Shown here piece by piece: positions 54,491-61,400 of a stretch of DNA of 64,000 nt. Source of the DNA: CAVQYV01 sp963718295 [NCBI: uncultured Methylomirabilota bacterium] (lineage in GTDB: Bacteria > Methylomirabilota > Methylomirabilia > CAVQYV01). Made by a program: the position numbers and the translations under genes. The stretch is from the NCBI GenBank assembly GCA_963718295.1, contig CAVQYV010000003.1, positions 310,001 to 374,000 of the forward strand, read 5' to 3'. The first letter of the stretch is position 1. The number at the start of each line of letters is the position of its first letter. The notes under the pieces were generated by a model. That model saw only the letters and a program-made list of their open reading frames with translations, ran no database searches and was not told the origin of the DNA.

Positions 54491-54506
54491 TGTATGCAAT
54501 TTTACA
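54491..54506 (+). promoter_or_regulatory. TGT-N10-ACA upstream activator site
   Basis: Matches the NifA enhancer consensus TGT-N10-ACA exactly in outer triplets, about 127 bases before the -24 element. The adjacent palindrome at 54510-54520 could be a second regulator site. The NifA-like activator is encoded immediately upstream. Confidence 0.6.
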
Positions 54507-54624
54507 TCTTTGTAGTACAACCCCTCGCTTCCCGCCCTGGTACTGAAGGTCTCCTGGTTCGCTCTATCTCGCTAACTCATTGCCATAATTGAATTTATGG
54601 CTCTCAAAAACCCCATCCAGCATT

Positions 54625-54640
54625 TGGCACCGATGTTGCT
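54625..54640 (+). promoter_or_regulatory. Sigma-54 promoter (-24/-12)
   Basis: TGGCAC-N5-TTGCT with exact GG-to-GC spacing, matching the consensus TGGCACG-N4-TTGCW in all but one base. Transcription would start near 54652, 48 bases before the ATG of the HdrB-HdrC fusion. Confidence 0.85.
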
Positions 54641-54699
54641 CTCTATGGGGTGGGTCAGAAAAGGTTTCAGAGAAACAATCCCATTCAGGAAAAAATGCC

Positions 54700-56091
54700 A
54701 TGGTTAAAAATCAAATCTCAGAACAGACATCAAAGGCGCAGATCAAAGAGACGATCCCCCAAAACAGATCAGGCTACGCCATGTTTTGGGGCTGCCAGAT
54801 CCCGGCCCGCCTCCCCTTCCTGGAGAAGGGAGCCCGGGCTGTCTTGCATCAGCTGAAAGTTTCGACCCATGACCTTTCTGATTTCACCTGCTGCCCGGAA
54901 CGGTCTTTCATCGCTAACCTCGACCCCTCGCTCTGGCTGACTACTGCCGCCCGCAACCTCTCCCTGGTGGAGGCTCAGGGTCTGGATCTTCTCACCCCTT
55001 GCTCAGGATGTTATGCCACCTTCCGGGAGGCGATCCATCAACTCCGGACGGACCGCCAGGCCAGGGAACAAGTTCAGTCCGCCTTGAAGGGTATGGGTCT
55101 CGAGTGGAAGGACCGCACCCACGTCCTGCACATCGCCACCCTGATCTGCGACATCCTGGGACTGGAACGAATCAAGGGCTCGCTGATTCACCGCCTCGAT
55201 GGCATTCGGATTGCGGTTCATTATGGCTGCAACCTCCTGCGAACCCAGCAATCCCATCCCTTCGATCATCCCTCGCGGCCTCGCAAACTGGATAGCCTGG
55301 TGGAGACCCTGGGCGGGATCTCCATTGAGTATGAGACCCAGGGTGAATGCTGCGGAGAATCACTGGGCCGGACCTCAGGGACCGGTGATGCCAAAGCGAT
55401 GGCCCGGAGAAAGCTGTCGGCGATCCGGGCCGCCCAGGCGGACGCCATCCTCGTGGTCTGCCCCGCCTGCTTCATGCAATTCGACACCCAGCAGGCCTTG
55501 ATGTCCAGGGAGGGGGAGTCCTATCGGATTCCGGTCTTCTTCCTGACCGAGCTGCTGGGCCTGTGCATGGGCCTTTCCCCCGAGGCTCTGGGCCTCACCT
55601 CCACCTCTCATCGCACTCCGGTGGGATCCTTCTTCGAAAAATGGGAGGGAAAGAGGGAAAGAGGCCCCATCGAGGCCCCGTTATTCGATCAGGATGCCCT
55701 AAAGCGATGTCTCGACTGCGGTGCCTGCATCAACGACTGCCCGATTGCCCTCACCGAGGAGGATTATCGGCCTGATCTTCTGATCGAAAAATTGTTAGAG
55801 GGAGACCTGGAGTATTGCCTGAAGCATGAAAAGCTCTGGTCCTGTCTGGAATGTCATCATTGCAGCCAGCTCTGTCCCCAGGATTATAGCTGGGAGAAGA
55901 CCTTGCACCTCCTCAAGCGGTTGGCCATGAAGGAAGGTCAGGTCCCTTCCGCCATCCGGGAGGGCGCCGAACGCTTCCTCAAGACCGGTCGGCTGGCCGA
56001 GGTCAGCCCCACCTCCAGGAAGCGTCTGGGTCTGCCGGAGGTGGAGTCGGCATCCCCGGGCCTCATAGAAGAGATCAAGGAGAAGGCATGA
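54700..56091 (+). CDS. HdrB-HdrC fusion iron-sulfur protein
   Basis: A 463-residue fusion. The N-terminal part has two complete CCG motifs: Cys32, CC at 64-65 and CSGC, then a second set with YGCNLL, ECCGES and CPAC. These are the ligands of the noncubane clusters that reduce disulfides in heterodisulfide reductase subunit B. The C-terminal part is HdrC-like with CLDCGACINDCP and CLECHHCSQLCP. It is the first gene after the sigma-54 promoter and overlaps the glutamate synthase glutaminase gene by four bases, so they act together. Electron donor or thiol/disulfide sensor for glutamate synthase is inferred. ATG at 54700; the longer frame would cross the promoter. Confidence 0.82.
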   Translation: MVKNQISEQTSKAQIKETIPQNRSGYAMFWGCQIPARLPFLEKGARAVLHQLKVSTHDLSDFTCCPERSFIANLDPSLWLTTAARNLSLVEAQGLDLLTPCSGCYATFREAIHQLRTDRQAREQVQSALKGMGLEWKDRTHVLHIATLICDILGLERIKGSLIHRLDGIRIAVHYGCNLLRTQQSHPFDHPSRPRKLDSLVETLGGISIEYETQGECCGESLGRTSGTGDAKAMARRKLSAIRAAQADAILVVCPACFMQFDTQQALMSREGESYRIPVFFLTELLGLCMGLSPEALGLTSTSHRTPVGSFFEKWEGKRERGPIEAPLFDQDALKRCLDCGACINDCPIALTEEDYRPDLLIEKLLEGDLEYCLKHEKLWSCLECHHCSQLCPQDYSWEKTLHLLKRLAMKEGQVPSAIREGAERFLKTGRLAEVSPTSRKRLGLPEVESASPGLIEEIKEKA

Positions 56092-58763: not shown

Positions 58764-59519
58764 ATGACCATGATGCGGATCGACGCCCAAGGACTGAACT
58801 ACAAGGAACTGAATCACATGGTCCGCGAGGCAGTGGCCCAGGGCCAATTTGACCTCTTTCTCGACCATGTCAACGGACAGCGCTACATCGGGGATGCCCT
58901 GGCGGGCAATGTCCAGATTCGGATCAAAGGAGTTGCGGGGCAGGACCTGGCTGCCTTCATGGATGGGCCCACCATCAGGGTGGAGGGAAATGCCCAAGAT
59001 GGGGTGGGCAACACCATGAATTCGGGAAAAGTGGTGATACTGGGCCAGGCCGGCGATGTCCTCGGCTACGCCATGCGGGGAGGGAAGCTATATGTCACTG
59101 GGAACGCCGGATATCGCATCGGCATTCATATGAAATCCTATCAGAACATGGTCCCGGTGATCGTCATTGGCGGAAAGGCAGCCGACTTCCTGGGGGAGTA
59201 CATGGCCGGGGGCGTCCTGATCGTGCTGGGAATGGGGGCTCAGGAGGAAGAATTTGCCCGGAAGGCATTGGCTGGCGATTATCTCGGCACCGGGATGCAC
59301 GGGGGAGCCATCTATCTGCGGGGCAAGATCGATCCCTCCCAGATCGGAAGAGAGATCGCCCCGGCCGACCTGACGGAAGAGGACCATCGTCTGCTGCATT
59401 CGGAATTGGCGGAGTTTTGCCAGGATGTGGGATGGAACCTGGAGGAGGTGCTGGAGGTTCCCTTCACCAAACTAGTACCCCTTTCCCATCGGCCCTATGG
59501 GGGCCATTACAGCTATTGA
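58764..59519 (+). CDS. Archaeal-type glutamate synthase, GXGXG structural subunit
   Basis: The beta-helix domain of glutamate synthase as a separate 251-residue protein. Repeated glycine motifs are visible ([50 protein letters not shown]). It supports the ammonia channel geometry in the complex. It starts 82 bases after the FMN subunit and completes the GATase-FMN-GXGXG set; together the three subunits match GltB in content. ATG at 58764 with GGAGATGGAG upstream. Confidence 0.92.
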
Positions 59520-59557
59520 AGCATCTCAGGTCACGTCAGAAAAAGGAGGTGAGGAGA

Positions 59558-59896
59558 ATGAAGAAGATTGAGGCGGTCATCAAACCCTTCAAGCTCGATG
59601 AGGTGAAGAATGCCCTCAATGAGATCGGTGTACAGGGCATGACCGTGGTAGAGGCCAAGGGATTTGGAAGGCAAAAAGGACATACCGAGCTGTACCGGGG
59701 CCTGGAATATGTGGTGGATTTTCTGCCCAAGGTCAAGATCGAGATCTTGGCGTCCGACGAGTTCGCGGACAAAATTGTGGAGACCATTGTCACTTCCGCC
59801 CGAACGGGAAGGATCGGCGACGGAAAGATCTTCGTCACGGACCTGGCAGAGGTCGTCCGGATTCGCACCGGAGAGCGGGGAGAGGATGCCATTTAG
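59558..59896 (+). CDS. glnB: Nitrogen regulatory protein P-II (second copy)
   Basis: P-II signal protein, 112 residues, very like the copy at 52.3 kb. Tyr51 lies in the T-loop ([10 protein letters not shown]), and [10 protein letters not shown] and [10 protein letters not shown] are intact. Differences cluster in the middle and in the T-loop flank, so the two may bind different targets. ATG at 59558 follows AAAGGAGGTGAGGAG. It follows the glutamate synthase block by 38 bases and precedes glnA, so it probably co-varies with ammonia assimilation. Confidence 0.93.
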
Positions 59897-59987
59897 TCAC
59901 AGTATAGTCAAGATAACTGCTTTGTTCCCATAACCCTTCATTGGAAGACTTATTTCGCAGTCTAAGAAGACGACAAGGAGGATGAGC

Positions 59988-61400
59988 ATGACACCCAAAG
60001 AGGTTTTGGAATTCGCCAAGAAGAACGGGGCCAAGATGCTGGATCTGAAGTTCATGGACTTTCCCGGCATGTGGCAGCATTTCACAGTCCCCATCGTTCA
60101 GCTCACCGAAGATACGTTCGAGGAGGGATTTGGATTCGATGGCTCCAGCATACGGGGGTGGCAGGCCATTCACACCTCGGATATGCTGGTGATCCCCGAC
60201 CCGGATACGGCGGTCATGGATCCCATCACCGAGGCCCCCACCCTCAGCTTGATCTGCAACATCGTAGATCCCATCACCAAGGAGCGATATACCCGGGATC
60301 CTCGGAATATCGCCCACAAGGCGGAGGCCTATCTCAAATCCACCGGCATTGCCGATACGGCCTTCTTCGGCCCCGAGGCGGAGTTTTTCATCTTCGACGA
60401 TATCCGCTACGACTCGCGGGAGAACTCGGCCTTTTACTTCATCGATTCCATCGAAGGCCAGTGGAACACCGGGGCGGAGGAAATGCCCAACTTAGGCTAC
60501 AAACCCCGCTACAAGGAAGGATATTTTCCGGTTCCACCCACCGATAGCTTCCAGGATTTGCGGACCGAGATGGTCCTGATTATGGAGAAGACAGGCATCG
60601 AGATCGAGGCCCAGCACCATGAGGTGGCAACCGCGGGACAGGCCGAGATCGATATCCGGTTTTCCCCCCTCACCCAGATGGCCGACAAGCTGATGATGTA
60701 CAAATACATCATCAAGAATGTGGCCAGAAGGCACGGAAAGACCGTCACCTTCATGCCCAAGCCGATCTTTGGAGATAATGGCACGGGGATGCATACCCAT
60801 CAGAGCCTCTGGAAGGGAGGAAAACCCCTCTTTGCCGGATCGGGCTACGCGGGCCTTTCCGACATGGCCCTCTATTACATCGGGGGGATTCTGAAGCATG
60901 CCGCCGCCCTGTGCGCCCTGGTGGCCCCCACCACCAATTCCTACAAGCGCCTGGTGCCGGGTTTTGAGGCCCCGGTCAATCTGGCCTACTCGAGCCGAAA
61001 CCGGAGCGCGGGCATTCGGGTCCCCATGTACTCGCCTAGCCCCAAGGCGAAGCGGGTCGAGGTTCGCTTCCCGGACTGCACCTGCAACGGCTATCTGGCC
61101 TTCGCCGCCATGCTCATGGCCGGACTGGATGGAATCCAGAACAAGATCGATCCCGGACAGCCCCTGGACAAGGACATCTACGAGCTGGGACCAGAGGAGT
61201 TGAAGGATGTGCCCTCGGTTCCCCCCTCCCTGGAGAAGGCCCTGGATGCCCTGGAGGCCGATCACGAGTTCCTGCTGAAGGGAGATGTGTTCACCCAGGA
61301 TGCCATCGATGTCTGGATCAATTACAAGAGGACACGAGAGGTGGATGCGGTAAGGCTGCGGCCCCATCCCTACGAGTTCACCCTCTACTACGATATCTAA
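59988..61400 (+). CDS. glnA: Glutamine synthetase type I
   Basis: Dodecameric GSI, 470 residues, making glutamine from glutamate, ammonia and ATP. Metal and substrate motifs are [42 protein letters not shown] and [21 protein letters not shown]. The adenylylation region [11 protein letters not shown] near 397 retains its Tyr, so control by GlnE-type modification is plausible. ATG at 59988 is preferred over 59982, because AGGAGG lies seven bases before it. It ends before a strong terminator. Confidence 0.97.

Follow-up and report, generated by a model that had tools for sequence, protein, structure and literature searches.

An HdrB-HdrC fusion in the place of the flavoprotein partner of glutamate synthase: a conserved gene arrangement and its predicted sigma-54 regulon

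Glutamate synthase (GOGAT) is one of the main routes by which ammonia nitrogen enters amino acids, and its known electron donors are NADPH, NADH and ferredoxin; in methanogens, TfrAB acts as a thiol:fumarate reductase. In Desulfovibrio vulgaris we take DVU1823-DVU1821 to be the GOGAT genes. These belong to the sigma-54 regulon of DVU1949, which is assigned to 'nitrogen metabolism and transport' (PMC4641369). For the GOGAT operon of Geobacter sulfurreducens, GSU1235-1239, an RpoN promoter has been predicted, and control of both GOGAT and glutamine synthetase (GS) is attributed to RpoN; the primer extensions listed in the excerpt used name glnB-glnA, not the GOGAT operon, and the two kinds of partner gene in GSU1235-1239, for a pyridine nucleotide-disulphide oxidoreductase and an Fe-S protein, are known from a gene listing (PMC2725144). 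A further donor, F420, has been proposed for glutamate synthases of anaerobic methanotrophic (ANME) archaea, which carry an FrhB-type F420 module beside the GOGAT subunits (PMC9012536). Here we analyse a stretch of 64,000 nucleotides from an uncultured Methylomirabilota bacterium (contig CAVQYV010000003.1, positions 310,001 to 374,000; hereafter the window), which contains a GOGAT operon that, unlike the operons with FAD and FeS partner genes in Geobacter, on a Monoglobus plasmid (L045) and elsewhere, has a fusion of HdrB to HdrC (HdrBC) in their place.

The operon (Table 1) encodes, after HdrBC, three GOGAT proteins that carry PF00310 (GltB1), PF01645 with Fer4 (GltB2) and PF01493 (GltB3) on separate subunits, the family that we take to be the three-subunit (archaeal-type) glutamate synthase. 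HdrBC overlaps GltB1 by 4 bases and GltB1 overlaps GltB2 by the same length; together with the Pfam and NCBIfam domains, these overlaps bear out the original prediction of a coupled unit of HdrBC, three-part GOGAT, P-II and glnA. We consider it likely that the operon (54700-61400) runs the GS-GOGAT pathway with electrons passing through HdrBC instead of through a pair formed by a 4Fe-4S protein and an FAD/NAD(P)-type oxidoreductase, neither of which gave a match in the window at E 1e-5.

HdrBC contains two CCG sites, with the ten cysteines of the HdrB non-cubane sites, and two 4Fe-4S motifs, with the eight cysteines of HdrC, and all 18 are retained in 17 of 17 HdrBC proteins. In a comparison of the AlphaFold model of HdrBC (mean predicted local distance difference test score, pLDDT, 79.7; predicted template modelling score, pTM, 0.65) with solved structures, the HdrB part aligned with 5odc_B over 288 residues (Z 35.9, root-mean-square deviation 2.2, 35% identity) and the C-terminal part with the HdrC chain 5odh_I over 147 residues (Z 11.2, deviation 4.2), whereas the non-Hdr structures among the rows listed rank from Z 24.6 down. 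The protein thus resembles its counterparts in the HdrABC-MvhAGD complex (5odc) in its HdrB fold and in possessing all non-cubane and 4Fe-4S ligand motifs. It differs from them in the fusion of B to C, in its linkage to GOGAT, in an operon without hdrA, and in scores below the TIGR03288 and TIGR03290 cut-offs; against NF004898 (TfrB) it reached 84.7 bits, the cut-off being 385. The retention of both five-cysteine non-cubane sites argues for disulfide/dithiol chemistry over a plain relay of electrons.

The same gene order recurs in other genomes. A first scan of genome contigs recovered three relatives of HdrBC, with 40-43% identity, all directly before GltB1, and in total 16 distinct loci outside the window were found in Actinomycetota and Chloroflexota (L001, L002, L003, L018-L025, L099-L103), with HdrBC immediately before GltB1 in every one. 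At E 1e-120, HdrBC is present in 9 of 31 genomes from the class of G001, in at least 12 of 296 from the phylum of G001, in at least 1 of 251 from the phylum of G003 (the centre genome itself) and in at least 2 of 245 from the class of G296, the counts in the three large samples being lower bounds because scoring there was confined to the 5 or 6 best candidates of each genome; at E 1e-100 it is present in 2 of the 100 G003 relatives searched. The samples overlap one another, and the centre genomes are among those counted. A search of plasmids for HdrBC gave two weak matches. GltB3 is present in 13 of the 16 loci (at L003 and L023 the contig ends too early). The position of glnA varies: it precedes HdrBC in 7 loci and follows GltB3 in 5, and in the other 4 it does not occur in the stretch covered. 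At L100 (1510-7187, genome G481) genes that by eye resemble those of a branched-chain-amino-acid-type ABC transporter and an amidase precede the HdrBC-GOGAT cassette, a possible further link to nitrogen.

At 29 of the 36 other GOGAT loci fetched, a 4Fe-4S protein (PF13247) is found together with an FAD oxidoreductase (PF07992). HdrBC was seen in none of these 36 stretches, and neither an FeS nor an FAD partner was seen in the flanks covered at the 16 HdrBC loci, so the redox partner, which the original prediction had called unusual, is indeed so. In the actinobacterial class of G001 a 4Fe-4S protein and an FAD/NAD(P)-type oxidoreductase precede GltB1 in 12 of 16 non-HdrBC stretches, which were taken around other GltB3 matches in 15 of the 18 non-HdrBC genomes with a match (G254, G267 and G273 were omitted); the other four comprise an FAD fragment at a contig edge (L041), two cut stretches (L031, L043) and a lone GltB3-like gene with no GltB1 or GltB2 (L044). 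In Chloroflexota, the phylum of G003, GltB2 was found in 21 of 251 genomes and the pair in 17 of 20 stretches, one of the 21 having been left out. On the Monoglobus plasmid (L045) the pair lies between GltB2 and GltB3. The GltB2 proteins of GOGATs with an FAD/FeS partner (L045, L029-L042 and Chloroflexota) are 60-65% identical to that of the window. Two further observations concern GOGAT loci that lack HdrBC. Genes that by eye resemble NrpR-type repressors lie near GOGAT at L030, L033, L034, L036, L039, L040, L067, L068, L073, L075 and L085, so that GOGAT in these lineages may be controlled by repression rather than by sigma-54. At L075 (1-4984), which has neither HdrBC nor the FAD/FeS pair in the flank covered, genes that look by eye like the end of HdrA, MvhD and a hydrogenase lie upstream of GOGAT.

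The two kinds of GOGAT are also distinct in GltB2 itself. A tree of 44 GltB2 proteins contains a branch, supported at 100/100, that parts the 15 HdrBC-type sequences (the window, L020 from the Chloroflexota searches and 13 from those of Actinomycetota) from 29 others, among them flavoprotein-type GOGATs of the same class and the same phylum; a tree of 39 rows gave the same split. L003 and L023, with GltB2 cut or missing, and some near-duplicate Chloroflexota rows were left out. Twelve columns of the GltB2 alignment split the types without overlap and hold at most two residues on the HdrBC side, the separating residues including Arg24 (inside the first cluster motif), Trp86 and Cys117. The charge of the GltB2 ferredoxin domain was tried as a marker of type and rejected: the HdrBC mean is +1.1 and one FAD group lies at -4.6, and the Chloroflexota FAD type lies at -0.5, so charge fails to separate them. 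Both GOGAT types co-occur in one class and in Chloroflexota, and the simplest reading of these sequences would be that HdrBC-GOGAT is a cassette moved between phyla as a unit.

Upstream of the operon, 466 bases separate the end of the activator gene (54233) from the ATG of HdrBC (54700). Sixty bases before this ATG stands the sole exact match to TGGCAC-N5-TTGC in the window (spacer CGATG), which has the GG and GC dinucleotides, consensus flanks and the right spacing, and for which Markov-resampled copies of the intergenic stretch give a probability of 0.00065. The exact -24/-12 promoter of the original prediction is therefore upheld; moreover, a weighted scan of sites with GG and GC at the right spacing, which had been suggested as a check, placed it first (8.7 of a possible 9.1; runner-up 7.9), the consensus and weights being those that we presume for sigma-54. 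With one mismatch allowed, 3 matches were found in the window against 2.75 expected, so near-matches to the motif carry no meaning. Transcription would probably start near 54650 from this predicted promoter. Across 48000-63600 neither a scan for sigma-70 promoters (2 found, 5.3 expected in shuffles) nor one for terminators (16 found, 15.6 expected) gave an excess. The inverted repeat GCCATAA-N6-TTATGGC at 54582-54601 is one of 10 such pairs in the intergenic stretch and, like the others, is by our estimate no more than chance would produce. A check for rpoN, which covered one class and thereby 9 of the 16 HdrBC-type genomes, gave a match in 2 of its 31 genomes, G257 being the one of the 9 with a match.

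The activator gene just upstream agrees with the original prediction in that TIGR01817 (NifA) is its best model, aligned over nearly the full length at 477 bits; because this is below the cut-off of 528.85 we call the protein NifA-like, not NifA. It combines the sigma-54 AAA+ domain (PF00158), a GAFTGA-type motif in the form GSFTGA and a Fis-type helix-turn-helix (PF02954), and its closest solved relative is 9qq6_C, a Nif-specific regulatory protein (337.9 bits, residues 203-521). The GSFTGA variant is also given for DVU3220 of D. vulgaris (PMC4641369). At the N-terminus there is no Pfam match to a GAF domain, the TIGR01817 alignment begins at residue 24 and the fold model, made from a single sequence, is too poor to use (mean pLDDT 35.7). 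Between the receiver-domain gene and the activator sits a P-II gene (52272-52610) that the original prediction did not mention, with the T-loop tyrosine retained (RGAEYTIDF). In Rhodopseudomonas palustris the target of P-II proteins on NifA and AnfA is reported to be the GAF or the GAF-AAA+ region (PMC12093980), and this precedent, with a P-II gene adjoining the activator in the window, suggests that a similar P-II control may exist here. Unlike in the NifA and AnfA systems, the neighbouring target is ammonia assimilation, not nitrogenase, and its control is putative.

The activator had further been linked to the promoter through an enhancer-like TGT-N10-ACA site. The site is present, at chance level in the window (4 found, 4.45 expected) and with a probability in resampled intergenic copies of 0.035 anywhere, or of 0.011 at 60-200 bases upstream of the -24 element, a range picked after the site was seen. 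We reject it as strong evidence, and this tells against the link between activator and promoter. We weighed the alternative that an activator of another, NtrC type works at a genuine -24/-12 site, while the NifA-like protein controls other genes such as nif. The near-chance TGT-N10-ACA and the score below the NifA cut-off fit such an arrangement, but the NifA-like gene lies upstream of the operon at a distance of 466 bases and follows directly on a P-II gene, and its product has the parts needed to activate sigma-54 polymerase; we think the alternative rather unlikely. In the reading that we prefer, the NifA-like protein encoded upstream would drive transcription from the sigma-54 promoter, and P-II would modulate it. 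The ammonia-assimilation regulon as a whole is plausible, given the promoter, the activator and the GOGAT/P-II/GS operon; the action of the activator through TGT-N10-ACA is conjectural. Sigma-54 control of GOGAT is of a known kind, given the precedents in Geobacter and D. vulgaris; like GSU1235-1239, the operon has a predicted RpoN promoter, and the regulon appears ordinary in kind, its detail being predicted.

For the path of electrons into GOGAT we propose the following steps: 1) a dithiol carrier, or another Hdr-type donor, would deliver electrons to the non-cubane Fe-S clusters of HdrB; 2) from HdrB they would pass through the two 4Fe-4S clusters of HdrC and the two of GltB2 to the FMN of GltB2; 3) this FMN would reduce the iminoglutarate that forms when 2-oxoglutarate reacts with ammonia set free by GltB1. 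HdrBC would then be the electron-input subunit of GOGAT, most likely fed by a dithiol carrier. The full proposal of a thiol-driven glutamate synthase, whose HdrB non-cubane clusters oxidise a dithiol carrier and thereby drive glutamate formation via HdrC and GltB2, is one that we advance tentatively, with somewhat less than even confidence. Such an enzyme would be analogous to TfrAB, in that an Hdr-like Fe-S module feeds a flavoenzyme that reduces a carbon substrate; unlike in TfrAB, the acceptor is glutamate synthase, and the thiol substrate is putative. The potential for reductively aminating 2-oxoglutarate is about -0.12 to -0.13 V. Set beside the potential of CoM-S-S-CoB, given as -138 mV and revised to -281 mV (PMC12054007), this value indicates that a dithiol donor would be energetically sufficient. 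The proposed F420-dependent glutamate synthases of ANME archaea likewise have a different redox module beside the GOGAT subunits, which in their case is of the FrhB type and in the window HdrBC (PMC9012536).

HdrBC could also be a plain relay from reduced ferredoxin or a similar protein to GltB2, with no thiol chemistry at HdrB. Such a relay would require no new carrier, GltB2 has a ferredoxin-like domain of its own, and the GltB loci L075 and L085 have neither HdrBC nor the FAD/FeS pair in their flanks; yet it would have no need of the two five-cysteine sites that are retained throughout, and electrons from ferredoxin could enter GltB2 directly. On balance we regard a plain relay as unlikely.

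Another possibility is that HdrBC docks to an HdrA-MvhD encoded elsewhere, glutamate formation being the high-potential acceptor of a flavin-based bifurcation in which ferredoxin is co-reduced. HdrC normally takes its electrons from HdrA (PMC12054007), and a link between Flx-Hdr and fumarate reductase has been proposed (PMC7282089). A search of the 16 HdrBC-type genomes with NF041891 at E 1e-50 gave HdrA-like matches in 12, none above the 1300-bit cut-off, and MvhD was found in 30 of the 31 genomes of the class, including all 9 of its HdrBC-type genomes. On the other side, the operon in the window contains neither hdrA nor mvhD, and G481, G511 and G531 gave no match to HdrA at the same threshold, all 27 to 29 candidates having been scored, nor to MvhD. 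The contig with the G481 locus is 1,838,614 bases long, and the genome measures about 1.8 Mb; as this contig spans about the whole genome, the absence of HdrA is unlikely to be a gap. In G296 no HdrA was found among the 35 of 68 candidates scored, a result that is therefore not firm, and there was a weak match to MvhD. The three HdrA-free genomes argue against obligatory bifurcation and make it less likely that HdrA is required in trans: GOGAT can apparently be served by HdrBC with no HdrA complex present, and we hold the bifurcating scheme to be quite improbable. As a separate observation, in-frame TGA or TAG codons occur in HdrB- or HdrA-like frames at L007 and L008, in G001, G002, G256, G257, G262, G401 and G591, and in others; the TGA cases may be selenocysteine.

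Several points weigh against HdrBC as the dedicated input subunit: 1) a conserved neighbour need not be a subunit, and the complex of HdrBC with GOGAT is putative; 2) HdrBC misses the equivalog cut-offs, with 242.5 of 345.15 bits for TIGR03288 and 58.8 of 160 for TIGR03290; 3) the HdrB tree places the 17 GOGAT-linked proteins in one group apart from 3 paralogs with moderate support (73/94) and long branches; 4) at L020 GltB3 does not follow GltB2, and the flanks at L003, L023, L024 and L025 are short or cut; 5) neither partner was seen in the flank covered at three Chloroflexota loci, L070 (cut by its contig end), L075 and L085, and free ferredoxin may therefore be a further donor to GltB1-3; and 6) most HdrBC-type genomes gave the HdrA-like match described above. 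The first of these points would suit a HdrBC that is merely co-regulated with GOGAT and has a separate thiol redox role under nitrogen limitation, but given the overlapping frames in the window, the unbroken adjacency over two phyla, the non-overlap with the flavoprotein donor and the GltB2 residues that vary with partner type, we consider this very improbable.

Table 1. Coordinates in the window of the operon, its predicted control elements and the regulatory genes upstream
Feature	Position	Strand	Basis and remarks
Single-domain response regulator (receiver)	51859..52221	+	PF00072, 93.6 bits
P-II (GlnB/GlnK-type), directly before activator	52272..52610	+	PF00543, 122 bits; NF008111, 175.7 bits, below cut-off of 202
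NifA-like sigma-54 activator	52659..54233	+	AAA+ with GSFTGA, HTH_8, divergent N-terminal domain; PF00158, 250 bits; PF02954
TGT-N10-ACA, candidate NifA-type upstream site (weak)	54491..54506	+	pattern search
Sigma-54-type -24/-12 promoter (predicted), TGGCACCGATGTTGC	54625..54639	+	exact-match search, weighted scan
HdrB-HdrC fusion (HdrBC), 463 aa	54700..56091	+	two HdrB non-cubane CCG sites, two HdrC 4Fe-4S sites
GltB1, glutamine amidotransferase part of GOGAT	56088..57179	+	PF00310; conserved CG motif
GltB2, N-terminal 2x[4Fe-4S] ferredoxin domain and FMN synthase part	57176..58681	+	PF01645, 460 bits; Fer4; alignment
GltB3, GXGXG part of GOGAT	58764..59519	+	PF01493, 122 bits
P-II regulator, T-loop Tyr retained	59558..59896	+	NF008111, 177.8 bits, below cut-off of 202; PF00543 on longer frame
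Glutamine synthetase type I (glnA)	59982..61400	+	TIGR00653, 681.6 bits, above cut-off
Perfect 11-bp inverted repeat with 18-base loop, after glnA	61436..61475	+	possible terminator, poor T tail

Beyond the inverted repeat that follows glnA comes an asparagine synthase-like gene. Upstream of the receiver-domain gene, a sensor histidine kinase gene (48022-51858; four-helix sensor, PAS, three GAF, HisKA and HATPase_c domains) contains three changes of reading frame, which represent either sequencing indels or a decayed gene. On the minus strand a gene for a periplasmic binding protein (Peripla_BP_6, 5685-7419) is split between two frames, covering 1-181 and 177-339 of the profile, which, along with the frame changes in the kinase gene, is a hint that the assembly contains indel errors. 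The window also encodes, at 26584-28325, an HcyBio enzyme (PF01837) and an overlapping NIL-ferredoxin protein, a pair that is linked to homocysteine synthesis in anaerobes.

In excerpts from the openly licensed literature on glutamate synthase with Hdr-type modules we found no description of HdrBC beside GOGAT; the HdrBC-GOGAT cassette is a real and conserved gene arrangement that is apparently undescribed. As there are four overlapping or adjacent genes to express, a direct biochemical test is feasible. If HdrBC is a dedicated input subunit, an Hdr-type donor class would be added to those of the glutamate synthases, Hdr modules would serve biosynthesis, beyond energy metabolism, and the cassette would point to a thiol carrier even in bacteria in which no HdrA was found. 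If, further, the donor is a thiol, ammonia assimilation would be tied to the thiol/disulfide pool, not to NAD(P)H or ferredoxin, and these enzymes would constitute a class of glutamate synthases defined by its donor and present in two phyla as well as in the lineage of the window.

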